Part shown: positions 1,468 to 48,848 of the stretch, piece by piece | Layout of the letters: each line of letters begins with the position of its first letter | How positions within the stretch are numbered: position 1 is the first letter of the stretch | Translations under genes and position numbers: made by a program | Notes under the pieces: generated by a model | The model's database searches: none | Seen by the model: the letters and a program-made list of their open reading frames with translations, nothing else | Told to the model about the DNA's origin: nothing | Origin: a virus | Reading direction: 5' to 3' (one strand) | Length of the DNA stretch: 49,487 nucleotides | Virus record (IMG/VR): IMGVR_UViG_3300008114_002113 | Coordinates: 1-49,487 of that record

Positions 1468-2780
1468 CCGAGGTAATTCTCAGTGGTCAAAAGTATTCTG
1501 CTCAGGATTTCAGTGAAATGTTGATTCAGAATAACCTCAGCGTTGCTAGTAACGGAGCAGTGTATAAACTTCCAAAGGGAGAAGGTGAAGAGGGTACTAT
1601 TCCAAGTATTCTTATCAAGTGGTTCAATGAACGTAAAGAAATGCGTAAGTTGGCCAAGAAACACGCTGATGCTAAAGAGTGGGAAATGTATGAGTTCTAC
1701 GATCAACGTCAGAAGGTTCAAAAGATCTTGTTAAACTCCATTTATGGTTGTTTGGGTCTTCCTGTGTTTCGTTTTTATGATAAGGACAACGCTGAGGCAG
1801 TTACCTTGAGTGGTGTCAGCATCATTAAGACTGCGAATATGGCAATCAACCAGTATTACAAGAATGTCTTGGGTGAAGAGGCTAAGGGTAACGATTATGT
1901 TATCTACGTTGATACCGATTCTTGTTTTGCCAGTGCGTTGCCTATTATCAAGAAAACGATGCCGGATATTGATATGGAAGATGAAAAACAAATGACGGAG
2001 GCGATTCTCAAGGTAACTGGAGAAGCTCAGACTTATGTCAACAAGATGTTTGACATTATGTCACTTCGTTTGTTTAACGTGAAGAAACATAGGTTTGACG
2101 CAAAACAAGAGGTGATTGCCAAGTCATCGTTTTGGTTGGCGAAGAAACGGTATTGTCAGTTCATTATTAACAAGGGTGGAGTTGAGTGTGACGAATTGGA
2201 AGTTAAGGGTATTGACGTTGTTAGAACGTCGTTTCCTGCCAAGTTTCGTACCTTTATGAAACAGTTCTTGATTGATCTTTTGAAGAAGGTTGATCAGGAG
2301 ACCATTAACAACAACATTCTACAGTTCAAAGAGGACATGAAGGACTTTGGTGTTATTGAACTGGCGAAGAATACCAGTGTAAAGTTTAAGAGTGATGCGA
2401 CAAAAAAGGTGGATTACAATCCTAAGAGTCGTCAACCTTTTCAAATCATTTCAGGTACTCCTGCTCAGGTTAAGGCAGCATTGTATTATAACGATCTATT
2501 GGCACAGTTTAATTTGACCAAGATTATTCCTCCGATATTTCATGGTCAGAAGATTAAGTGGGTATATCTAAAACAGAATGAGTATGGTATTGAGTGTCTT
2601 GCTATGAAGGCGGACGGTACTGATCCTCAACCGATTATGGATATTATCACAAAGTATATGGATCGTGATACCATGTATGAACAAGAGTTGAAGAGTAAAC
2701 TTGTTGATTTTTACGAGGTGTTAAATTGGGAGTACCCAAATTCAAATTGGAAAGCTGCATCTGCATTTTTTGAGTTTTGA
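1464..2780 (+). CDS. DNA polymerase family B, palm/fingers/thumb part lacking motif A
   Basis: This 438-residue protein continues the polymerase: fingers helix and motif B (KILLNSIYGCLG, residues 87-98), motif C (YVDTDS, 148-153, the palm metal aspartates), then a KKRY motif and a thumb-like C-terminus. The annotated start is TTG overlapping the previous stop (TTGA). Read upstream in the same frame the protein continues smoothly as NFVRGKLTEVIL, so the natural polypeptide began earlier. Motif A with the first catalytic aspartate is in neither fragment. As it stands it could not polymerise alone. A missing piece of roughly 50-70 residues would restore the family's usual length. Confidence 0.88.
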   Translation: MTEVILSGQKYSAQDFSEMLIQNNLSVASNGAVYKLPKGEGEEGTIPSILIKWFNERKEMRKLAKKHADAKEWEMYEFYDQRQKVQKILLNSIYGCLGLPVFRFYDKDNAEAVTLSGVSIIKTANMAINQYYKNVLGEEAKGNDYVIYVDTDSCFASALPIIKKTMPDIDMEDEKQMTEAILKVTGEAQTYVNKMFDIMSLRLFNVKKHRFDAKQEVIAKSSFWLAKKRYCQFIINKGGVECDELEVKGIDVVRTSFPAKFRTFMKQFLIDLLKKVDQETINNNILQFKEDMKDFGVIELAKNTSVKFKSDATKKVDYNPKSRQPFQIISGTPAQVKAALYYNDLLAQFNLTKIIPPIFHGQKIKWVYLKQNEYGIECLAMKADGTDPQPIMDIITKYMDRDTMYEQELKSKLVDFYEVLNWEYPNSNWKAASAFFEF

Positions 2781-2782
2781 TT

Positions 2783-3553
2783 ATGAATATTGCTATTTTG
2801 ATGTCAGGAAGAACCGAACGGTTTAATTTTGTTTTAGATTTGAATAAAAGCAATTTGATCCAACCACTTTTGGATTCGGGTCATAAAGTTGATATGTTTG
2901 GATCTTTCTGGGATGAACATGATACAGAATCATGTATTCACGCATTTCAACCCCATTTGAAAGTTACTGACATTGAAACGTTTACACCTTTCACTTGTGG
3001 TATGATTAATAATTTTAACGAACATGAAGAACGTATTAAGAAGTATCAAAATGATAGTAAACTTTCAAATACATTGTATTGGCTTTATAAGTTGAATCGT
3101 TTATATAAAATTGTTAAACAGTATGAACGTATGAATAGTATAAAATATGACTATTATGTTCGTATTCGTCCTGACGTTGGATTGAGATATCCATTTAATG
3201 TAGATGATTTAAATCACTTAACGGATGATTCTATTATTACCCACGTTGACCACGTAGTTAATTCGGGTGGTAAGATATATGGGTGTGGAGAAGGATGGAT
3301 AGATGACAATTTCTGTATTGCTAAACAACATCCATTTGAGGTCTATTGTAGTGTCTACGATGATATACTGTCACTCTGTGATATGTGTCAGAACTGTATA
3401 TCTCATTTGTTGTTTAAAAAACAATTTGAATTGAAGAATATAAAAACATTGCTTCCTAATTCGCCATTAATTATAGTTCATAAAACCCATATGGGTATAC
3501 AACTGTTTACTTACTTTGAATATGTGTACCCAAATTTTGGTGTTACCCGGTAA
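2783..3553 (+). CDS. glycosyltransferase-like protein (putative)
   Basis: A 256-residue protein starting MNIAILMSGRTERF. I chose the ATG at 2783, just after the polymerase stop. An earlier in-frame TTG at 2777 overlaps that stop. The opening beta-strand with ILMSGRTER and the later YDYYVRIRPDVGL (about residues 122-134) resemble small GT-A-like sugar transferases in surface-glycan clusters, but I cannot name a family with certainty. It is the first gene of the cassette that interrupts the replication genes and uses far more AAA, ATA and AAT codons than the polymerase, consistent with separate acquisition. Confidence 0.65.
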   Translation: MNIAILMSGRTERFNFVLDLNKSNLIQPLLDSGHKVDMFGSFWDEHDTESCIHAFQPHLKVTDIETFTPFTCGMINNFNEHEERIKKYQNDSKLSNTLYWLYKLNRLYKIVKQYERMNSIKYDYYVRIRPDVGLRYPFNVDDLNHLTDDSIITHVDHVVNSGGKIYGCGEGWIDDNFCIAKQHPFEVYCSVYDDILSLCDMCQNCISHLLFKKQFELKNIKTLLPNSPLIIVHKTHMGIQLFTYFEYVYPNFGVTR

Positions 3554-3691: not shown

Positions 3692-4903
3692 ATGATAACC
3701 AAATCGATAAAAGAACTTATTTTTGTTAACCGGAACACTGTGTTTTCTGGTAACATTGTTACATATTATATTAAATCTAAAACGGATTTATTTGATGCGG
3801 CTAAAGCTATTGCATTGGGACAAAGTGTTGGGAACCCAGAAAAAAGATCCGAATTTGAAAGCAACGAATTGTTTGAAACATTTTGTGCCAAAGTTATTAT
3901 AGACGACGTTGATTTTTCTAAAAATGAAGGATCGGTTGATATTTATTATCCAGACTCCAATTTCAATTATCAAGAAGATGGAATAACACATTTTTTAACC
4001 ACTATTATGGGTGGACAAGTTGATATTGACATCATTCAAAAATGTCGAATAACAAACATACAGTTTTCAAATAAATTCACATCCATATTTAATGGACCGA
4101 ATCTTGGTTTATATGAAATGCGGCAGTTGTGTAACATCAATGATAAAACACCGTTATTTGGTGGAATTATCAAACCGAAAATCGGACTTAATGTAAATGA
4201 TTATGTAGAAGTTGTTAAAATTTATGCGGATAATGGATGTAATTTTATCAAAGAGGATGAAATTTTATCAAATCAATCGTTTTGTTCAATTGAAAAACGA
4301 CTTGAAAAGATTGGTGATTATCTTAGAACCAACAACATTAAGATGGTCTATGCACCATCGATAACGTGTGACCATTTATATTTAGAGGACCGTATACGTA
4401 AAGTCCATAATATGGGAATAAACGGTATCCACATCAATATTCATAGTGGATACGGTGCATATAAATTGGCAAAAGATCTTAATCTATCTATGTTTTTACA
4501 TTATCAGAAAAGTGGAGATAGGTTATGGACAAATCCACAACACGATTATTCTATAGATGAATCAGTTTTGTTTGAAATTGCAAGTCGATGTGGATGTTCT
4601 ACACTTCATGTTGGTATGATTGGTGGATATTTAAATAGCGATTCTGATAGTTTGAAGAAAACTATAAAGAAACTAGTTGAATTAAATTCTGTGCCAGCTT
4701 TAAGTTGTGGAATGCATCCGGGGTTAATTGAATATATTAAATCCGAACTTGGTCATTCAAACTGGATGGCAAATGTTGGTGGATCAATTTCATCACATCC
4801 GATGGGCAGTAAAGCTGGCGTAAAAGCGATGGTCCAATCGATTCAAAAAACATACGGTGATGAATATTACACAGCAATTGAAACGTGGGGATTAAAGAAA
4901 TGA
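3692..4903 (+). CDS. RuBisCO-like protein (form IV-type RLP)
   Basis: A 403-residue protein with the RuBisCO large-subunit fold signature. Residues 161-163 KPK match RuBisCO Lys175/Lys177. Residues 187-190 KEDE match the carbamylated Lys201 with metal ligands Asp203/Glu204. His270 and His306 match His294 and His327. SCG 338-340 and GG 363-364 match the two phosphate-binding loops. Key changes: the loop-6 lysine (Lys334) is Tyr313, Arg295 is Tyr271, and the Thr65-Trp66 pair is Asn-Pro (48-49). The metal/enolisation site is therefore kept while CO2 fixation is not expected, as in form IV RLPs (DK-MTP-1-P enolase and sugar-acid-phosphate enzymes). Its stop overlaps the nucleotidyltransferase start (ATGA). 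The substrate is unknown. Confidence 0.9.
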   Translation: MITKSIKELIFVNRNTVFSGNIVTYYIKSKTDLFDAAKAIALGQSVGNPEKRSEFESNELFETFCAKVIIDDVDFSKNEGSVDIYYPDSNFNYQEDGITHFLTTIMGGQVDIDIIQKCRITNIQFSNKFTSIFNGPNLGLYEMRQLCNINDKTPLFGGIIKPKIGLNVNDYVEVVKIYADNGCNFIKEDEILSNQSFCSIEKRLEKIGDYLRTNNIKMVYAPSITCDHLYLEDRIRKVHNMGINGIHINIHSGYGAYKLAKDLNLSMFLHYQKSGDRLWTNPQHDYSIDESVLFEIASRCGCSTLHVGMIGGYLNSDSDSLKKTIKKLVELNSVPALSCGMHPGLIEYIKSELGHSNWMANVGGSISSHPMGSKAGVKAMVQSIQKTYGDEYYTAIETWGLKK

Positions 4904-5625
4904 CTTTAAACGTTGTTATACCAGCTGCTGGTCTTGGTACTCGATTTAATACCACAATTCCAAAACCTTTACTGGATGTTAATGGATCTCCGATGTTAGC
5001 GAGAGTTATAAATAACTTTCATCATCGTGATGTAAAGTTTTTTGTATGCATTCTTAAAGAGCATCAACAGAAATTTAATATCATAGATAATGTAAAAACA
5101 TACTGTGACACATCATCTATCAACTATGTTATCATTGATGAACTTACAGATGGACCTGCTCGAACATCCTATTTTGTAAAACAACATATTAATGTCGATG
5201 AACCATTGATCGTGACAAATTGTGATCAGGTTATTTTTGATTTGGATTTGGATAAACTAACGTCTTTTTCAGAAAAGAAATCAGCAGATGGAGTCGTTGG
5301 GACGTTTTATTCAAATAGTCCAAAAAATAGTTATATTAGATTAAATGATGATGGGTTAGTTACACAAGTTAGAGAAAAAGAGGTTATTAGTAATTATGCT
5401 ACAAACGGACTTCATTTTTGGTCAAAAGGATCTTATTTCTTTGAGTCATGTGACGAAATGTTTTCTCGAAATGACAGAGTAAATAATGAGTTTTATGTTG
5501 GACCAAGTTACAACTATATGATCAACAAAGGAATGAAAGTTGTTCAATATTTTTTCAATGAACATTTTCCAATAGGAATCCCACAAGATTTAGAGTTATT
5601 TAAAAAAATAGATGAAAATATTTGA
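4900..5625 (+). CDS. sugar-phosphate nucleotidyltransferase (GT-A NTP_transferase fold)
   Basis: This 241-residue enzyme should activate a sugar (or polyol) phosphate to an NDP derivative. It has the signature AAGLGTRF (residues 9-16) and PKPLL (21-25) that bind the NTP, a metal-binding TNCDQV strand near residue 108, and a C-terminal G(I/T)PQDLE motif typical of RmlA/HddC/LicC-like capsule enzymes. The ATG at 4900 overlaps the RLP stop. An upstream GTG in frame is less likely. Tight coupling to the RLP suggests that the RLP product, or its dephosphorylated or isomerised form, is what gets activated. The nucleotide used cannot be read from the sequence. Confidence 0.85.
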   Translation: MTLNVVIPAAGLGTRFNTTIPKPLLDVNGSPMLARVINNFHHRDVKFFVCILKEHQQKFNIIDNVKTYCDTSSINYVIIDELTDGPARTSYFVKQHINVDEPLIVTNCDQVIFDLDLDKLTSFSEKKSADGVVGTFYSNSPKNSYIRLNDDGLVTQVREKEVISNYATNGLHFWSKGSYFFESCDEMFSRNDRVNNEFYVGPSYNYMINKGMKVVQYFFNEHFPIGIPQDLELFKKIDENI

Positions 5626-5938
5626 TTCAAAACCGTTTATGGATAAAGGCGGTTGGTTTATTGGAGATTTCGAACCAACTGTTTTTAAAACGACTGCATT
5701 TGAGGTTTCATACAAACTCCATTATAAAGGAGAGAGTTGGCCAACTCACCACCATAAGGTAAGTGAAGAAATAAACTTTCTAATTCGTGGTAGAATGACT
5801 ATTAATGATGTAGTTATTAATGTTGGAACCATATTCATCATTGATCGATATGAATCGATAAAACCAGTATTTCTGGAAGATTGTGAACTAATTGTTGTGA
5901 AAGTTCCGTCTTCGAAAAATGACAAATATGAAGATTAA
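5612..5938 (+). CDS. single-domain cupin protein
   Basis: A 108-residue protein overlapping the nucleotidyltransferase by 14 bases. Cupin motif 1 is complete: His46-x-His48-x4-Glu53-x6-Gly60, the usual metal ligands. Motif 2 normally supplies a fourth ligand histidine, but the matching strand (residues 69-85) has none, so the metal site would be three-ligand. Small cupins in sugar clusters act as isomerases, epimerases or sensors; acireductone dioxygenase is also a cupin but is longer. Translation coupled to the NTase implies a shared pathway. The reaction is unknown. Confidence 0.8.
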   Translation: MKIFDSKPFMDKGGWFIGDFEPTVFKTTAFEVSYKLHYKGESWPTHHHKVSEEINFLIRGRMTINDVVINVGTIFIIDRYESIKPVFLEDCELIVVKVPSSKNDKYED

Positions 5939-5940
5939 TT

Positions 5941-6573
5941 ATGAGCAATATAGATCAAAATTTATACGTTAAGAATACATCAAATGTTAATGGACTTTCT
6001 TATCTACCATCTTTCAAAAATGAATATGATAACGACGTTGACTGGCCCCGATGGTTTGATGTAAAAAACGGGATTCCAAATGAAATTAGTGATGCGAACA
6101 AAGAAGCATTGGATGATATTCTACGTAAGGTCAATGTAAAAAACGTCATTGAAATTGGTATTTCTCGTAATGATACAAGATCTTTTACCACACAACTACT
6201 TTACGCAAAGAAAGGAATTTATTGTGGAATTGATATTGAGGACAAAACATTTTTGAATGATCATTTAAATCGTGTATATACAATCAAAGCTAATTCACAT
6301 GATCAATCAACTATACGTTCATATTTAAATACCATTGGATTGAAAAAATGTTCTGTATTATTTATCGATGGATGGCACTCGGTTAATACTGTTATTAATG
6401 ACTGGAAATATACAGATTTGCTTGATGACAATGGTGTCGTTATTTTTCATGATACTAACTATCATCCGGGTCCAAATCTTATTATTGATGCAATTGATCG
6501 ATCCATGTATAGGGTAGTAAAGTATTGTGATGGTGGTTGTGATTGGGGTATTGCAGCTGCGTATAATTTATGA
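5941..6573 (+). CDS. SAM-methyltransferase-fold protein (Methyltransf_24-like)
   Basis: A 210-residue Rossmann-fold protein. The SAM loop region reads VIEIGISR, followed by YCGIDIED, then FIDGWHSVNTVINDW and VVIFHDTNYHPGP. This FIDG-H...FHDT pattern is characteristic of class I methyltransferases of the Methyltransf_24 and cephalosporin-hydroxylase type found among sugar O-methyltransferases. The glycine-rich motif I is degenerate (EIGIS in place of GxGxG), so activity is plausible but not assured. It starts 2 bases after the cupin and overlaps the next glycosyltransferase by 4 bases. A role in modifying a sugar or glycan is inferred from context. Confidence 0.75.
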   Translation: MSNIDQNLYVKNTSNVNGLSYLPSFKNEYDNDVDWPRWFDVKNGIPNEISDANKEALDDILRKVNVKNVIEIGISRNDTRSFTTQLLYAKKGIYCGIDIEDKTFLNDHLNRVYTIKANSHDQSTIRSYLNTIGLKKCSVLFIDGWHSVNTVINDWKYTDLLDDNGVVIFHDTNYHPGPNLIIDAIDRSMYRVVKYCDGGCDWGIAAAYNL

Positions 6574-7406
6574 TACACGTATATATTCTAACATATAATA
6601 ATAACCAAATCTTAAACGGATGGGCATTAAAATCATTACACGAATCAGAGTATGACCGTGATAAAGTCAAGGTTTTTGTAATAAACAATCACAGCAATAT
6701 TGTTATTGAGGAACAATATAAACAAACTGTTACTGTATTAAACAATGTATTACGTCCAGATTTTTCAACTGGACATTTGGCCAGAAATTGGAATCAGGCA
6801 ATAATGAGAGGATTTGTTAATTTGAATAATCCTCAATGTGAATATGTTATCACATGTCATAACGATACCGTCTTCAAAAAAGACTGGTATAATAAATTAA
6901 TGAAACATGCACGTATATACAACTATATTCAGTTAGGTGCTGGCGATCAATTTCAAATGTTTAGCCCAATTGCTGTAAAATATATTGGCATGAACGATGA
7001 ACGATTTTGTGGAAACGGTGTACAAGAAGCAGATTATTTGTTACGTGCCAGATTATATTTTGGACAACATTCGACTATTAATGACTATAGTCATGATCGA
7101 ATTCATAATCCAATTGAAGAAAATGACGTGATCGAAACTACACCCCTTGGATGGCAACATTCAAAAGACATCCACGCATTGTATGTACGATTTCATCCGA
7201 TTTGTTATACTATTTTTAAGAAAAAGTGGGGAATATCTCCTATCGAATGGAGTCGTTATGATGTTCCATTTGACAGTCTTGAACCACTAATTGATAACTA
7301 TATTTTATACCCATATTTTGAACGGGATATCATTACATTAAAACAACAAAAATACGTTTGTGAAGATACTTCGCTTGATGAAATTTGTAAACTAAGAACC
7401 AGATGA
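6570..7406 (+). CDS. family 2-like glycosyltransferase
   Basis: A 278-residue GT-A protein. It starts MIHVYILTYNN (the GT2 opening strand) followed by VFVINNHSN, and carries the metal-binding motif as ITCHNDTVF near residue 109, a DxD variant with HND. The C-terminal part has WQHSKD and a histidine/aromatic-rich acceptor region. It overlaps both neighbours by 4 bases (ATGA), so it belongs to one continuous operon with the RLP cassette. The donor sugar is probably supplied by the upstream nucleotidyltransferase; this is inference. Confidence 0.8.
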   Translation: MIHVYILTYNNNQILNGWALKSLHESEYDRDKVKVFVINNHSNIVIEEQYKQTVTVLNNVLRPDFSTGHLARNWNQAIMRGFVNLNNPQCEYVITCHNDTVFKKDWYNKLMKHARIYNYIQLGAGDQFQMFSPIAVKYIGMNDERFCGNGVQEADYLLRARLYFGQHSTINDYSHDRIHNPIEENDVIETTPLGWQHSKDIHALYVRFHPICYTIFKKKWGISPIEWSRYDVPFDSLEPLIDNYILYPYFERDIITLKQQKYVCEDTSLDEICKLRTR

Positions 7407-7864
7407 AACTCATATCACACAGAGGCAACTTACATGGACCAAATCCGGATAAAGAAAACCATCCAGATTACATTACCTCTGCATTAAAAGCTGGACATGA
7501 TGTTGAAGTTGATGTATGGTATCAGAATAACAAGTGGTATTTGGGACATGATAACCCTGAATATCAGGTTAAGTATGATTTTCTAGCAGAACGTAAGTTT
7601 TGGCTACATGCCAAGAATGGAGATGCGTTTCACCTATTGTTACAAGATTTTACGTTGAATGTATTTTGGCACACCGATGAAGATTGGGTATTGACAAGTA
7701 AACGATATATTTGGACTTATCCTACCAAACAATTATATCCTGAAAGCATCTGTGTAATGCCAGAACGGGGTTGGATGGGTGATCTTACAAAATGCTATGC
7801 AGTATGTACTGACTTCGTAAAAGAATTTCCAGAACAGTTTGAACAAGAATATTGGCTAAATTAG
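7403..7864 (+). CDS. GDPD-like phosphodiesterase (short form)
   Basis: A 153-residue TIM-barrel fragment resembling glycerophosphodiester phosphodiesterase: SHRGN at residues 5-9 (catalytic His), a PDKENHPDYITSAL helix, then VEVDVW (35-40) carrying the metal ligands, and GHDNP near residue 49 matching the family's second catalytic histidine. Full GDPDs have about 230-260 residues, so this is a reduced version lacking the last strands, a form also seen in sugar clusters. It may cut a phosphodiester in a glycan or lipid headgroup. It overlaps the upstream glycosyltransferase by 4 bases and precedes the GT10-like gene by 2. Confidence 0.75.
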   Translation: MKLISHRGNLHGPNPDKENHPDYITSALKAGHDVEVDVWYQNNKWYLGHDNPEYQVKYDFLAERKFWLHAKNGDAFHLLLQDFTLNVFWHTDEDWVLTSKRYIWTYPTKQLYPESICVMPERGWMGDLTKCYAVCTDFVKEFPEQFEQEYWLN

Positions 7865-7866
7865 TT

Positions 7867-8706
7867 ATGATTAACGTAAGTTTATATGATGGATCATTTG
7901 CACATGCATATTCGTGTTCAAATGGAGATTTGAATATTTTATCAAAACATGTACATTTTGATAGAGAAAATATACATGACATTGCGTTTTTTACGGATGG
8001 GTATGTTACGTGTGATAGTATAGATAACCATAACCACAAACGAAAAATTGCGTGGTTATTGGAACCAAGATCTATTTTACCTGATTTGTATAGTTTTGAT
8101 ATAGACTGGAGTAAATTTGATTTTATTTTAACTCACGATAAACAGTTCATTAAAGACGTTCAATCGCATACAAATGCCAATGTGTATTGGTATCCTGTAG
8201 GAGGAACTTGGCTATATGAAAGTGATTGGGTCATATATCCAAAGACTAAAAACTTATCTATCATTGCGTCTGGAAAACGAGAAACTGTTGGTCACAAAAT
8301 GAGACACGATATTATTGATCGTTTTCGTAGTCATTTTGATGCAATACACGGACGTGGTTATCAATGTGTCGAATATAAATTTGAATCGTTGGCACCATAT
8401 AGGTTTTCAACTATTATTGAAAACGCTCGTATAGATGACTATTTTAGTGAGAAACTTATTGATTGTCTACTGACGGGTACCATACCAATTTATTATGGAA
8501 CCAACAACATAGGAAATTATTTTGACACGAACGGTATGTTGTTGATCGATAACGTTGATTCGTTTAGTAATATAATTCCGATGTTAAACGAAGAGTATTA
8601 TGAATCCAAAATGGACATAATTCTTGAAAACTACAATCGTGCCAAAGAATACGTCAATACCGAAGACTGGATTTATAACAAGTATAAAGATATACTGTTT
8701 GTATGA
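7867..8706 (+). CDS. GT10 (alpha-1,3-fucosyltransferase-like) glycosyltransferase
   Basis: A 279-residue protein whose C-terminal third shows the GT10 nucleotide-sugar signature: ENARIDDYFSEKLIDCL, then GTIPIYYGTNN. GT10 enzymes transfer fucose from GDP-fucose. A GDP-mannose 4,6-dehydratase, which makes the GDP-fucose precursor, is encoded at 30165-31394 in this window, a consistent pairing. The ATG at 7867 was chosen over an in-frame TTG at 7852 because it lies cleanly after the preceding stop. It overlaps the GT25 gene by 4 bases. The donor is inferred. Confidence 0.82.
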   Translation: MINVSLYDGSFAHAYSCSNGDLNILSKHVHFDRENIHDIAFFTDGYVTCDSIDNHNHKRKIAWLLEPRSILPDLYSFDIDWSKFDFILTHDKQFIKDVQSHTNANVYWYPVGGTWLYESDWVIYPKTKNLSIIASGKRETVGHKMRHDIIDRFRSHFDAIHGRGYQCVEYKFESLAPYRFSTIIENARIDDYFSEKLIDCLLTGTIPIYYGTNNIGNYFDTNGMLLIDNVDSFSNIIPMLNEEYYESKMDIILENYNRAKEYVNTEDWIYNKYKDILFV

Positions 8707-9401
8707 TTACAGATTTGTTTAACATACTGGATTCTGTTGAGATAATCAACCTTGATGAAAGAACTGATAGGTTTGATAGAATATCAACACATCTAAATAA
8801 AATCGGATTTAACGGACGTTTTAATAGGTTTTCAGCTATAAAACGTGAACATACAGAACTTACACGTTCTGAGAATGCAAGACTTGGGTGTTTTTTAAGT
8901 CATTGTAACGTGATTGAAAACGCTTATAATAAAAAACAAAAATATGTACTTGTTCTTGAAGATGACTGTGAATTTATAGAAAATAACATCAGATACTTCA
9001 ATTTTCAGAGTCTATGTGAAACCATTCAAAATATTCAGTTTGATATGGTATATCTAGGAGCAACGTACTATCATTTAGAATCAACATCATTTTCACAGTT
9101 GGATAAAGTTAAACCATATGGGTGTAATGCCGCGTTTTGCGTAATTATTAATATTCAGTCAATGTTTGAGAAAATAATTAATGAATACGTGGATGAAGAT
9201 CATATTACAAATTTGGCAAAAAACAACCGTACAGATTATTCTAAAACCACGATTGATGGAGCATATAATTTTTTGAATCCGGTACGATATGCCACGGATC
9301 CAATTCTAGCGACTCAATTTTCATCATTCAGTGATATAGAACAGGTTGACGTGTCGTATCCACTGGTAACCATGTGGAAAGATGCAAAATCGAAGATATA
9401 A
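8703..9401 (+). CDS. GT25 (LPS-type) glycosyltransferase
   Basis: A 232-residue protein with the GT25 layout: INLDERTDR (residues 15-23), GCFLSHCNV (62-70) and VLVLEDDCEF (82-91, the DxD-type metal site). GT25 enzymes add galactose or related sugars to lipopolysaccharide. It is the last gene of the inserted cassette, ending 57 bases before the sliding clamp gene. A role in remodelling a host or virion glycan is likely but the acceptor is unknown. Confidence 0.85.
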   Translation: MITDLFNILDSVEIINLDERTDRFDRISTHLNKIGFNGRFNRFSAIKREHTELTRSENARLGCFLSHCNVIENAYNKKQKYVLVLEDDCEFIENNIRYFNFQSLCETIQNIQFDMVYLGATYYHLESTSFSQLDKVKPYGCNAAFCVIINIQSMFEKIINEYVDEDHITNLAKNNRTDYSKTTIDGAYNFLNPVRYATDPILATQFSSFSDIEQVDVSYPLVTMWKDAKSKI

Positions 9402-31399: not shown

Positions 31400-31801
31400 A
31401 TGTCAAACGAAACTTACACACTCTATAACAACACTGTGATGGATCATTTTATGAATCCACGTAACATGGGTGATATTCATGATGCGGATGCTATAGGAGA
31501 AGTAGGTGCAGCTGCATGTGGTGATATCATGAAAATCAGTCTTAAAATTGATCCCGAAACACAAACGGTGACAGATGCTCGGTTTAAAACATTTGGTTGT
31601 GGTAGTGCGATTGCTGCATCCAGTATGGCAACTGAACTAATCAAGGGTCGTAAAATAGATGATCTACAATCTAATTTTACCAACGATCAAATAGTTGATG
31701 CATTGGGTGGTCTTCCTCCCGTTAAAATTCACTGTAGCGTACTTGCGCATGAAGCATTACAAGCTGCATTGGATGATTACAAACGACGTAAGGGGTTGTA
31801 A
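31400..31801 (+). CDS. iscU: IscU-like iron-sulfur cluster scaffold
   Basis: A 133-residue protein with a complete IscU site: Cys40 and Asp42 (ACGDIMK), Cys67 (GCGSAIA) and Cys112 (KIHCSVLA). IscU assembles [2Fe-2S] clusters received from a cysteine desulfurase. No desulfurase (IscS) or chaperone binding partner is in the window, so it would have to use host IscS. The Pro in the chaperone-binding motif is partly kept (LPPVK). It starts 5 bases after gmd and overlaps the next gene by 1 base. A phage-borne scaffold could support Fe-S enzymes during infection. Confidence 0.88.
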   Translation: MSNETYTLYNNTVMDHFMNPRNMGDIHDADAIGEVGAAACGDIMKISLKIDPETQTVTDARFKTFGCGSAIAASSMATELIKGRKIDDLQSNFTNDQIVDALGGLPPVKIHCSVLAHEALQAALDDYKRRKGL

Positions 31802-40519: not shown

Positions 40520-41638
40520 CTATACTGCTACTTCTCCTTTAATTGCTGGATGTGGGTTATAATCTATAATTTCGATATCTTCAAACTTAATATCAAATAT
40601 TGACTTGCCCGGTGTCTTGATATTCAATCGTGGTAATTCTCTAATATCTCTGGTTAATTGTAATTTAACTTGTTCCAAATGATTTTCATATAAATGAACA
40701 TCTGCCGCGCTATATACTAATTGACTTGGAATCATGTTAAGTTGATTTGCAATTAAATGTGTAAACAACGCATAAAATGCACAATTAAATGGCAGACCCA
40801 AGAAAGTATCAGATGATCGCATATTAAAGTAACAATTCAAACGATATTTTGGAATACCTGTTCTATCAAAATCTTCATCGGAATATTTATAATACATATT
40901 TTCATTTCTTGAATCTTTCTCCCGTGCGATTTCCAAACGTTCTTGCCATGTCAATTGTTCTGTACCAAACTGAATATAATTGTGACACGCTGGCAATAGA
41001 GCGTCTTCTCGGTTATTACTATGATATGGATGCCATGCGGTAATAATGATTCTACGACTATCTGGATTGTTCTTTAGATCATTGATTGCATTAGTAAGTT
41101 GATCCACCGTTTCAACGGACCACCCTTTGACAATCATGTGATCACCATTGTTTTGACCAATTGGGCTAATACGATGTGGAAAGTTTCTCCACATTCCACC
41201 ATAACCATATCGTCCAATACTTCCCCACTTTTTGGCAAATTCATCATTATTGATGATTTCTTGTTCGAATTCTTTTTGTGTCATTTCACGCACACAATTT
41301 TTTTCAATATCCTCGATATGAACATCATAATCGGGTTCGGTGAGTGTTTTACAATGGTTAAGATACTTTTGATAGGGCCATTCAGTCCAGAATGTTACGC
41401 CGTTCTTTAGAAGATACTGAATGTTTGTATCTCCATTAATCATCCACAATAGTTCATGCACTACACTCTTCCAGTGCATTTTCTTTGTGGTAAGAAGAGG
41501 AAATCCACGTTGTAGATTGACATAAATCTGCGCACCCCAAACCTTTCGGGTGTTTATACCGGTTCGATTCTTAGAAAGTGTTCCTAAATCACATATGTCA
41601 TTAAGAAGGTTTATATATTGTTCTTCGTAATTATTCAT
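40520..41638 (-). CDS. thyA: thymidylate synthase (ThyA-type) with insertions
   Basis: A 372-residue enzyme converting dUMP to dTMP. Motifs are RTGINTRKV, GFPLLTTKK, the catalytic Cys218 in LLPACHNYIQF, NMRSSDTFLGLPFN and DVHLYENHL. It is about 100 residues longer than E. coli ThyA. Extra segments lie near residues 86-140 and 224-266, the second between the catalytic strand and NMRSSD. Phage enzymes often carry such loops. Supplies dTMP to phage replication together with DHFR. It overlaps the upstream 75-residue gene by 8 bases. Confidence 0.92.
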   Translation of the reverse strand: MNNYEEQYINLLNDICDLGTLSKNRTGINTRKVWGAQIYVNLQRGFPLLTTKKMHWKSVVHELLWMINGDTNIQYLLKNGVTFWTEWPYQKYLNHCKTLTEPDYDVHIEDIEKNCVREMTQKEFEQEIINNDEFAKKWGSIGRYGYGGMWRNFPHRISPIGQNNGDHMIVKGWSVETVDQLTNAINDLKNNPDSRRIIITAWHPYHSNNREDALLPACHNYIQFGTEQLTWQERLEIAREKDSRNENMYYKYSDEDFDRTGIPKYRLNCYFNMRSSDTFLGLPFNCAFYALFTHLIANQLNMIPSQLVYSAADVHLYENHLEQVKLQLTRDIRELPRLNIKTPGKSIFDIKFEDIEIIDYNPHPAIKGEVAV

Positions 41639-42672: not shown

Positions 42673-43149
42673 TCATGTCTTTTTATATTTCACAACCTTG
42701 TGTCCATTTTCAAATTCAATGTACAGTGAACTTTCAGTGTGGTACTTACTCAACGGAGGCATGTATGTATCACCTTCATATTCACCATTAACGTGAGTAA
42801 TATAAAACTCATCAATAGCGTCCATGAACAATTCATACGTTTTGGCACCACCCGCAACAATAACATCACGTTTTTCAGCAACCTTTAGTACATCAACATA
42901 TGACATTGTACACATCGCAGTGTCTTTGAAAGGATTAAACCAACGATCTGTAAACGAATCGGTTAACACCAATAACTTTCTGCCAGGAAGTGGTGGAAGT
43001 GTTCGATATGTGGTTGATCCCACAACAAGATACTGATTGGCAGTAAATGTCTTGAACCACTGAAAGTCTTCTTTGATACTTGGCCAAGGAAGACCACCAC
43101 CCCGTCCAATCAGACGGTTTTTATCCATTGCAGCAATTGCTTTGATCAT
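42673..43149 (-). CDS. folA: dihydrofolate reductase
   Basis: A 158-residue enzyme: IAAMDKNRLIGRGGGLPWP (substrate loop), FKTFTANQYLVVGSTTYRTLP (cofactor-binding), IVAGGAKTYELF and FYITHVNGEYEGDTY. It regenerates tetrahydrofolate consumed by thymidylate synthase, so both genes cooperate in dTMP supply. Length matches bacterial enzymes. Overlaps the kinase gene upstream by 4 bases. Confidence 0.93.
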   Translation of the reverse strand: MIKAIAAMDKNRLIGRGGGLPWPSIKEDFQWFKTFTANQYLVVGSTTYRTLPPLPGRKLLVLTDSFTDRWFNPFKDTAMCTMSYVDVLKVAEKRDVIVAGGAKTYELFMDAIDEFYITHVNGEYEGDTYMPPLSKYHTESSLYIEFENGHKVVKYKKT

Positions 43150-44405: not shown

Positions 44406-45425
44406 TTAATCGTTATGTTTAAGTTCAAAGGTTTCACTGATAATCTTACCAGACAAACGTCCCTTTAGAGTCTCACTATAAGACTCCTCGGTTGGACGAA
44501 TCACAATACCCTCAGCAAGATTACCGTTATCGTACTTCAAGTTGTTAGCAAACTCTTGTAGTTCTGAAAGAGTCTTATTGAAAGACGGTCCAATATCAAT
44601 AGTGTCAACAATTGGAATTGAGTTATAGAAACAAAACTCTTGCAACTCCTTCCAATCAAGATACTTGTAGTTGTCAATGTCAAATAGATTGAATGCACGA
44701 AACTGAATATCCTTGACCCCAAGTAGATTTCCTTGAATGCCAGGTCCGTAAACCTCACCTTGAATAGCAAGATTACGTCCAGAGTTCTTCAACTTGTTCT
44801 CAAGATCATACTTTCTAGCGATGACCCAAAAACTGTTCTTATCGTCTTCCTTGAGTTGATAGTTTCGACTACAAACACCAAATCCAACATCGTTCTTGTA
44901 AAAGTAAGTTCCACTGCTTCCATCAACCTTTACAGTGATGTAATATGGCTTACCAGTAAGCTCTTGAATGATCTCGGGATTGTTCTTGATATTGTCCTCG
45001 TCAGTCTTACGAAGATAACTAGGCATCAGACCAACCATTTGACCTGCCAATTGCGCAGAAAGCGGCTTTTCATAGTGTTTTGCGTAAACATAATGACTTA
45101 CATCACTTCCAATAACATCTGGCTCTGTAAACACTACGGTATCATGTCCAAGAGTCTTGAATAGACTCATGGGAAATGCAATACCCTGACTAATTTGTCC
45201 ACGGAGTTTGACAGTCTTAATACGGAAATGCTTGTTACGTAAAAACTCATAACAAGGCTTGTCTTCAAGAACGCTATCAACACAGATATAGATACAAAGG
45301 TCTCCTTTCTTGAACTCACCTTTCTTGATACAAACCTGCCAACCCTTGATCTTTGCAAGTTCAAGAGCGTCAGCGTTTGGGTGAGGAAGTACCTCTGCGA
45401 TTTCTTCGATTGTAGCGACTTTCAT
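44406..45425 (-). CDS. RNA ligase, Rnl5/DraRnl-like
   Basis: A 339-residue ATP-dependent ligase. The N-terminal about 110 residues look like an OB-fold (MKVATIEEIAEVLPHPNADALELAKIKG). The nucleotidyltransferase part has Lys166 (VKVDGSSG), GEVYGPGIQGN, AEGIVIRP (motif IV) and SGKIIS (motif V). An OB domain at the N-terminus is characteristic of the DraRnl (Rnl5) group, unlike T4 Rnl1/Rnl2. It seals nicked or broken RNA. It precedes the kinase by 2 bases. Confidence 0.85.
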   Translation of the reverse strand: MKVATIEEIAEVLPHPNADALELAKIKGWQVCIKKGEFKKGDLCIYICVDSVLEDKPCYEFLRNKHFRIKTVKLRGQISQGIAFPMSLFKTLGHDTVVFTEPDVIGSDVSHYVYAKHYEKPLSAQLAGQMVGLMPSYLRKTDEDNIKNNPEIIQELTGKPYYITVKVDGSSGTYFYKNDVGFGVCSRNYQLKEDDKNSFWVIARKYDLENKLKNSGRNLAIQGEVYGPGIQGNLLGVKDIQFRAFNLFDIDNYKYLDWKELQEFCFYNSIPIVDTIDIGPSFNKTLSELQEFANNLKYDNGNLAEGIVIRPTEESYSETLKGRLSGKIISETFELKHND

Positions 45426-47741: not shown

Positions 47742-48848
47742 TTAGTTTTTTAATACTTGGAACATTAACTTCTTATATTCTTCCTTACCCAATGACTTAC
47801 CATCAAGCAACTTGAATAGAAATGAAGCTCTGTTGGTTTCACCATAAGATGAAATAACCAGTTGTGCTTGTTCCTTTCGGGTAGACAATGAACGAAGTCT
47901 GTTATTCACAAAACTATTCATAGCATCCACAATCTTGTCTACTTCTTTTTTTGCATCAACAATTCGGCTGATGTCACCCACAATTTGTTTTGCGGTTTCC
48001 CAATCCACGACTTCTGCAATTTTGCTTTGAAAAGTGTGAAAATCAGGATAACCTGAATCTAGATAAAAATCCAAAACTTTTTCAAGTGATGAAAATTCAT
48101 CCTTCAAACGATGACGAATCAAATACCAATCACTCTTTAGTTTGTGCAAAACTTGATCGTTCTTTGAATATACAACAACCCCCTCAAGTTTTTCCCAAGA
48201 CTTTACTAACATTGACAGGTCATTTATGTCATTAAAAGTATAAGTAGCAGGACGTTTGAGTCCCAATTCCTGTGCAGCTTCGTCCAAACGAGACTGTGAC
48301 CACAACATATAATGATGATGGTTGATTACGCCAACTAAATACCAATCAGGTTCATCACCATAGTTCAATACAATCTTATTGATAGGACTAACCCATTCAA
48401 ATAGAATGGAATAATGCCAATTACCATTTAGATCCACAGGTAGACACGTATCAATCTTCTTGAGAATAGTATCCTTGAACAGTTCCAACTCATGACCATT
48501 AGCCATAGTAGAAGCATCAACAGTTCCACGGGTTCGTAGAATATATTGACCCTTATACTTGCTAACAATCAATAGAGAACCGTCAAGCTTCTCCATTACA
48601 GTACAGTTCCGTAATGAAGTAGGAACAGGAAAGTGATCGGGATTCTCACCCCAGTTGGTAAACTTTGGAAAGCCTGCACTAATCACTTCACCATCGTAAT
48701 TGACAACAACACTACGTAGGTGTTTGTTGTCTTGCGTCCATTTAGTTCCGATGTGTTGTGGCTGAACCAAGTAAACAACTTCTCCGTTGAGAAAGTGTTC
48801 ATGCACCATGAATTGGGTGCGGTCAACCGTTGAAACATCTATTTTCAC
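47742..48848 (-). CDS. rnlA: RNA ligase 1 (T4 Rnl1-like)
   Basis: A 368-residue ligase of the T4 Rnl1 family. Motif I Lys87 (MEKLDGSLL), RTRGT, SILFEWVSPINKIVL (motif III/IIIa), LEGVVVY (motif IV) and HKLKSDWYLIRH (motif V), followed by an all-helical C-terminal domain as in Rnl1. T4 Rnl1 reseals tRNA cut by the host anticodon nuclease PrrC together with Pnk. With the Rnl5-like ligase at 44406 the phage has two different RNA ligases. It overlaps the next gene by 4 bases. Confidence 0.9.
   Translation of the reverse strand: MKIDVSTVDRTQFMVHEHFLNGEVVYLVQPQHIGTKWTQDNKHLRSVVVNYDGEVISAGFPKFTNWGENPDHFPVPTSLRNCTVMEKLDGSLLIVSKYKGQYILRTRGTVDASTMANGHELELFKDTILKKIDTCLPVDLNGNWHYSILFEWVSPINKIVLNYGDEPDWYLVGVINHHHYMLWSQSRLDEAAQELGLKRPATYTFNDINDLSMLVKSWEKLEGVVVYSKNDQVLHKLKSDWYLIRHRLKDEFSSLEKVLDFYLDSGYPDFHTFQSKIAEVVDWETAKQIVGDISRIVDAKKEVDKIVDAMNSFVNNRLRSLSTRKEQAQLVISSYGETNRASFLFKLLDGKSLGKEEYKKLMFQVLKN

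Follow-up and report, generated by a model that had tools for sequence, protein, structure and literature searches.

The open reading frame at positions 3692..4903 (+ strand) of the window, the 49,487-nucleotide stretch of viral DNA analyzed here (IMG/VR record IMGVR_UViG_3300008114_002113), encodes a RuBisCO-like protein (RLP) of 403 aa. The protein has the RuBisCO fold, keeps the metal/carbamate site, has lost the carboxylase residues and falls with its relatives into a separate clade, the genes of which lie in a conserved module. The explanation that we favor, at a probability of roughly 60%, is that of a non-carboxylating, metal-dependent enolase/isomerase which feeds a phosphosugar to the nucleotidyltransferase of the same cassette. 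A first-pass annotation had proposed a metal-dependent enolase-type enzyme acting in phage glycan synthesis; sequence, fold, phylogeny and gene neighborhood all favor this proposal, while the residue argument behind it was partly misaligned and the family is not restricted to phages.

Fold and active site of the RLP

The open reading frame starts with an ATG, and stop codons are found throughout the opposite strand. Membership in the RuBisCO superfamily was judged by a match over a curated cut-off together with a RuBisCO fold, and both were found. PF00016 matched with E=2.9e-27 (96.1 bits, cut-off 30.1), far above chance, and the AlphaFold2 model (20 homologs; pLDDT 89, pTM 0.88), a check recommended in the first-pass annotation, matched form III RuBisCO 8dht with a TMq of 0.86 at 23% identity. 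The reading frame is real and its product is a member of the superfamily. All NCBIfam RuBisCO and RLP models that matched did so far under their cut-offs: form III RuBisCO, the best of them, scored 137.6 bits (cut-off 497), two MtnW models 126.8 (cut-off 409) and 88.9 bits (cut-off 513.6), and the OiaX model 88.6 bits (cut-off 700). PHROGs held no family for the protein, and among the matches listed from the viral fold library BFVD there were only partial TIM-barrel matches (TMq <=0.41).

Active-site positions were mapped by HMMER and in an L-INS-i alignment in which 87 family members were set against forms I-III, MtnW, photo-type RLPs, OiaX and other RLPs. Several assignments made from the single sequence were borne out: the KPK motif (4172..4180, +), whose K161 and K163 correspond to RuBisCO K175 and K177, the carbamylation site K187 with D189 and E190 (4250..4261, +; K201, D203 and E204 in RuBisCO) and Tyr313 in place of loop-6 Lys334 (4628..4630, +) align as claimed and are invariant in 87/87 members. 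His306, also aligned as claimed, occupies the H327 position, with His in 66 of the 87 and Gln in 21. The mapping of His270 to H294 and of Tyr271 to R295, by contrast, was off by two in both HMMER and L-INS-i. Within H270-Y271-Q272-K273 (4499..4510, +), H270 corresponds to H292 (85/87 members), Q272 to H294 (87/87) and K273 to R295 (Lys in 69/87, Ser in 18/87), and Tyr271 is the residue between H270 and Q272.

Two losses had been missed, E60 to Gly43 and N123 to Gly108. Both are common to all 87 members, as are the replacements of T65 by Asn48, W66 by Pro49, H294 by Gln272, K334 by Tyr313 and G380 by Cys339, and the residues typical of the carboxylating forms I-III (Glu60, Asn123, His294, Arg295 and loop-6 Lys334) are absent from the RLP. 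The retention of both phosphate-binding loops, as had been claimed, held in part. The P1 glycines G340 (G381), G363 and G364 (G403 and G404) are invariant (87/87), as is S338 (S379), while T65/W66 and G380 have been exchanged and the P2 residues R295 and H327 have changed, both being lost in one subclade. Since the P1 glycines are invariant and the P2 residues dispensable, the substrate probably carries one phosphate. The forms with Ser at R295 and those with Gln at H327 are for the most part the same sequences, which make up a single set; in the subclade recognized by QSSGA...TIQTGM (L058, L065, L072, L077, L089, L101 and about 12 more) both P2-phosphate residues are replaced, and its substrate is perhaps a different one.

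It had also been stated that form IV RLPs lose Lys334. This is not general, as a Lys is found at this position in several RLP groups (OiaX, 3nwr, four-carbon-kinase-linked, Bacteroidota). None of the reference RLP groups compared, on the other hand, has retained K177, and the combination of a kept K177 with a lost K334 sets the present family apart from all of them.

The disappearance of several canonical residues could be taken to indicate a non-catalytic or regulatory remnant. We consider this very improbable: none of the 87 members, down to ca. 37% identity to the window protein, deviates at the metal/carbamate triad, K175, K177, the P1 glycines or Tyr313, which points to selection on the active site. 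A RuBisCO carboxylase serving phage carbon fixation can hardly be entertained. Form III RuBisCO does provide the best family model and the closest solved structures, but at a score far short of its cut-off, and K334, H294, N123 and E60 are replaced in every member; moreover, the gene neighborhood is one of glycan and not of Calvin-cycle functions. An 'rbcL' match in viral metagenomic data does not necessarily indicate carbon fixation.

Distribution and phylogeny of the family

When IMG/VR was scanned with the window protein as query, 16 loci were obtained, and a two-motif scan derived from the family alignment returned 346 relatives on contigs of up to 519 kb, 80 of which were retained; no relatives were present among the 50,697 phage records of INPHARED. 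The family is widespread and is not one orphan gene. Six of the contigs carrying it, 187-519 kb in length, encode a T4-type portal and terminase, and the carriers therefore include true large tailed phages. On one contig of jumbo-phage size (L118, IMGVR_UViG_3300017917_001342, 519 kb), terminase and T4-type portal were found along with the full RLP module.

The window encodes a clamp loader, PolB and T4-type RNA ligases; portal and terminase were looked for and were absent from the window and from its 127-kb near-twin contig. PolB is split into two open reading frames (400-2780), where the 99.9% identical contig L002 has a single one of 848 aa. About 165 bp are missing near position 1446 relative to L002, either by a real deletion or by an assembly error. 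Other genes of the window include a phage-encoded NifU/IscU iron-sulfur scaffold (31400-31801; PF01592, 2e-47), a thymidylate synthase of 372 aa (40520-41638, - strand), which exceeds in length by ca. 100 aa the Pfam model that it matches end to end, a DHFR (42673-43149, -) and, a few kb apart, two different RNA ligases (44406-45425, -, and 47742-48848, -; PF09414 and PF09511 matches).

GTDB contigs contributed ten cellular members, which come from SAR11, one further alphaproteobacterial genome, a Crocinitomicaceae MAG and Azospirillum oleiclasticum. The family is rare in cells: of 247 genomes sampled from the SAR11 order two carried it, one of which had supplied the query, and among 297 sampled Bacteroidota genomes it reached a family-level score in one, which was the genome already known. 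A phage-only origin of the RLP was considered as well, and is ruled out by the SAR11, Crocinitomicaceae and Azospirillum members. The SAR11 loci L023-L026 and L044 represent a second cellular RLP lineage, flanked by two different nucleotidyltransferases.

The placement in a RuBisCO/RLP phylogeny suggested in the first-pass annotation was carried out with IQ-TREE on 91 sequences, 39 of them sampled family members, with the photo-type RLPs represented by 2qyg and its relatives. All 39 members formed one group with a support of 100/100 and a branch length of 1.9, outside forms I-III, MtnW, photo-type RLPs, OiaX, 3nwr and the four-carbon-kinase-linked RLPs, and thus outside every assigned RLP clade sampled. 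Neither of the outcomes named in the first-pass annotation as fatal to its proposal, a position within MtnW or another assigned clade and a fold other than that of RuBisCO, was therefore observed. The clade also held in a quick tree without the long rows. Its nearest group differed between the two, the careful tree pairing MtnW with the photo-type RLPs and the quick tree placing MtnW beside the family. Cellular and viral RLPs interleave in the tree, indicating that transfer has occurred.

It is quite possible, though less likely than not, that the family corresponds to a metagenomic RLP group already described (IV-GOS or the unplaced GOS sequences of 2007), in which case only the phage hosts and the module would be new; this is compatible with the function favored here. 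The GOS paper reports 65 RuBisCO homologs that cluster with no known form (PMC1821046), and marine SAR11 members are present in the family.

A conserved module and its RLP-less counterparts

In the window, the RLP gene follows an uncharacterized gene of phrog_13607 (2777..3553, +) and is followed by a sugar-phosphate nucleotidyltransferase (NTP_transferase/IspD-like; 4885..5625, +, with a likely ATG at 4900) resembling RmlA/GlmU/IspD-type enzymes, and by a small single-domain cupin of 108 aa (5612..5938, +) with an HxH...E metal motif and matches to Cupin_7/Cupin_2. These two are core partners of the RLP, as is a short GDPD-like protein of 153 aa (7403..7864, +), which has an SHRGN motif and retains the catalytic residues of GDPDs (H6, E18, E35/D37 and H49/D50). 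Its model is confident (pLDDT 91) and its best fold matches are not significant (E 0.055 and worse; GDPD 2o55, TM 0.55, E 0.16); the label 'GDPD-like' derives from the catalytic motif together with a weak match to a profile. Between and beyond these genes lie a methyltransferase-like gene (5941..6573, +; Methyltransf_24, just under cut-off), a methyltransferase family of this type being present in 31/92 RLP family loci, and the glycosyltransferases of the glycan cassette, with matches to family 2 (6570..7406, +; weak, under cut-off), family 10 (fucosyltransferase C-terminus; 7852..8706, +) and family 25 (8703..9401, +).

Within four genes of the RLP, the nucleotidyltransferase was found in 86 of 92 loci, the short GDPD-like protein in 73 and the small cupin in 65; the next commonest neighbor family reached 41. 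When the RLPs were grouped into 21 clusters at 70% identity, the three partners, on the same strand, were present in 20, 17 and 18 clusters, respectively. Junctions between the RLP and adjacent module genes had a median gap of -4 nt, i.e., an overlap, and 94% were within 30 nt. The commonest orders were nucleotidyltransferase-cupin-RLP-(x)-GDPD and GDPD-nucleotidyltransferase-RLP. The complete four-gene set occurs in phages, in an alphaproteobacterial genome, in the Crocinitomicaceae MAG and in Azospirillum oleiclasticum RWY-5-1-1, where all four genes are adjacent (GDPD-RLP-cupin-nucleotidyltransferase). Downstream of the Azospirillum module there are genes which, by eye, resemble those for sulfate activation, cysD and cysNC. 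The module is embedded among genes for glycosyltransferases and sugar epimerases, and the constant nucleotidyltransferase with nearby glycosyltransferases that marks an NDP-sugar glycan cassette is seen at the RLP loci. No common glycan is defined by them, because the glycosyltransferases vary between loci.

This neighborhood bears on two further explanations. In a methionine-salvage-type pathway, the RLP would be an enolase (MtnW), the cupin ARD-like and a HAD protein MtnX-like, acting on a methylthioadenosine-derived diketo phosphate as phage auxiliary metabolic genes. RLP, cupin and HAD are indeed the same fold trio, MtnW models match weakly, a Gly at the E60 position is common to MtnW and the family, and the quick tree puts the two side by side. 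We nevertheless regard this as improbable, given MtnW scores that are a fraction of their cut-offs, a position outside the MtnW clade (which the careful tree joins to the photo-type RLPs), differences from MtnW at K177, H306 and Tyr313, a cupin of only about 108 aa with Cupin_7/Cupin_2 matches, and, amid glycosyltransferases, a GDPD-like protein and a sugar nucleotidyltransferase as the constant partners. Somewhat less improbable, yet still unlikely, is OiaX-like chemistry, by which the RLP would decarboxylate or de/trans-carboxylate a 3-oxo sugar-acid phosphate and provide the cassette with the phosphate of a tetrulose or of a branched sugar. OiaX is among the family models that match, and such RLPs exist (PMC6302742). 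Against it, the score is far below the cut-off, the RLP lies outside the OiaX clade in both trees, in the OiaX group position 334 is Lys, 294 is His and 295 is Arg while K177 is missing, which is the reverse of the present family, and neither a sugar-acid dehydrogenase nor a kinase recurs as a constant neighbor.

Related cassettes were collected with the GDPD-like family as bait, together with cyanophage cassettes and loci with DHBP synthase fusions; 80 of the 91 loci examined were without an RLP. In these, the nucleotidyltransferase most often carried a fused N-terminal beta-PGM-like HAD domain (TIGR02009 2e-33, below its own cut-off). In L132 (7574-8770), L157 (4516-5691) and L169 (252-1427) a C-terminal RpiB/LacAB domain was found instead (PF02502 8e-36; TIGR00689 121.7, cut-off 88.3) and the fusions adjoin the small cupin; a scan for further RpiB fusions returned only the two contigs that were already known. 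DHBP synthase (RibB; PF00926 5e-65; TIGR00506 188.1, cut-off 177.5), a riboflavin enzyme, is fused C-terminally to the nucleotidyltransferase in Synechococcus phage S-SKS1 and, by cluster and length, in six IMG/VR loci (L210-L215). The S-SKS1 fusion (L127:6001-7428) sits in a glycan cassette, and its record names the DHBP synthase only. In L181 the nucleotidyltransferase carries another, C-terminal HAD, and in L185 nucleotidyltransferase, cupin and GDPD lie beside a phosphomannomutase (PF03332 7e-20). All of these substitutes make or interconvert phosphosugars, and it is mainly for this reason that the RLP is proposed to supply the nucleotidyltransferase. The replacement is not strict, since HAD-fused nucleotidyltransferase and RLP occur together in a few loci (L003, L004, L012). 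In a quick tree of the nucleotidyltransferase domain, with many weak forks, the unfused RLP-linked enzymes of SAR11 and of some phages fell inside the HAD-fused group. An HpcH/HpaI aldolase was observed near the GDPD/nucleotidyltransferase cassettes L171-L174, L191, L195 and L199 (L172:6420-7106, PF03328), which perhaps encode a sugar-acid pathway.

Proposed function and comparison with known systems

Proton-transfer chemistry is the best-supported class of reaction for the RLP, because the metal site and K175/K177 are kept and the CO2-handling residues are gone. In the mechanism that we envisage, a divalent metal would be held via carbamylated K187 with D189 and E190, and the P1 glycine site (G340, G363/G364) would bind a small ketose phosphate, or a sugar-acid phosphate, by its single phosphate group. 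Abstraction of the alpha proton, with K161/K163 as acid/base helpers, would then yield an enediolate that, without Lys334, His294, Asn123 and Glu60, would be reprotonated or rearranged with no addition of CO2. The phosphosugar thus made or interconverted may be activated to an NDP-sugar by the neighboring nucleotidyltransferase, presumably with support from the metal cupin and from the short GDPD-like protein, and the cassette glycosyltransferases would use it for a glycan that modifies either the host surface or the phage particle. From the retained residues and the gene neighborhood we infer enolization or isomerization, a single phosphate, this direction of the pathway and the use in glycans. 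By analogy, a pentulose- or tetrulose-phosphate is weakly favored as the substrate, since RpiB and DHBP synthase, which are fused to the same nucleotidyltransferase family, both use ribulose 5-phosphate. Against this scheme, besides the varying glycosyltransferases and the replacement that is not strict, count the indirect nature of gene neighborhood as evidence, the cupin, which was not found in about a third of the loci, and the GDPD-like protein, which, with no significant fold match, has no clear place in the path.

More tentatively, and at somewhat less than even odds, the family may constitute a functional class that is new to the RuBisCO superfamily, namely sugar-phosphate isomerases/enolases devoted to making NDP-sugars for surface glycans. 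Such an enzyme would be found mainly in large aquatic phages, could be exchanged in its cassette for a beta-PGM-like, RpiB, DHBP-synthase or phosphomannomutase domain, and would lead to an undescribed sugar nucleotide. To our knowledge, the functions established for RLPs lie in sulfur salvage or sugar-acid breakdown. A clade with K334 lost and K177 kept, which is a fixed part of a biosynthetic glycan module and has been spread by phages, would, if the reading is true, extend the family of RuBisCO by an anabolic branch and provide a testable link from RLP chemistry to sugar-nucleotide synthesis. The proposal can be tested in a named strain, as all four genes are adjacent in A. oleiclasticum RWY-5-1-1.

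Among open-licence papers, no RLP in polysaccharide biosynthesis or in a glycan module was found. Virally encoded RuBisCO-like proteins as such are already on record, and unplaced RuBisCO homologs were reported from GOS data in 2007 (PMC1821046). Auxiliary metabolic gene (AMG) surveys contain RbcL/RLP entries, RuBisCO-large-domain proteins of viral contigs, which are given, in the parts concerned, as single AMGs without module or residue analysis (PMC12607003, PMC10159854).

The closest known proteins by family score and fold are form III RuBisCOs (8dht, 1geh; 22-23% identity), which have the KPK motif in common with the phage RLP and differ in that their E60, N123, H294, R295 and K334 are all replaced in it. 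Established RLP chemistry comprises enolization (MtnW), 1,3-isomerization of a pentulose phosphate (R. rubrum RLP) and de/transcarboxylation (PMC6302742). The R. rubrum enzyme, an MTRu-1-P 1,3-isomerase, demonstrates that a RuBisCO fold is able to isomerize a pentulose phosphate (PMC6302742), without CO2 chemistry, as proposed for the phage RLP. Its context and that of the photo-type RLPs is sulfur salvage, unlike that of the phage RLP. The photo-type RLPs (2qyg) form another clade, in which K177 is replaced by Asn, R295 by Phe and K334 by Arg, and nothing corresponds to His306. MtnW, the DK-MTP-1-P enolase (2zvi, 2oek), resembles the phage RLP in the metal/carbamate site, K175, a single phosphate and Gly at E60, but stands outside the clade, lacks K177 and has Ser at K334 and Pro at R295. 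OiaX, a 3-oxo-isoapionate-4-phosphate decarboxylase, is likewise RuBisCO-like with a sugar-acid phosphate as substrate, whereas it keeps Lys334 and Arg295, lacks K177, forms a separate clade and works in a catabolic context. As for the module, the cyanophage cassettes of S-CAM9, DSL-LC03 and B23 contain the same nucleotidyltransferase and GDPD-like families, close together and amid glycosyltransferases; they have no cupin, and a beta-PGM-like HAD domain takes the place of the RLP.
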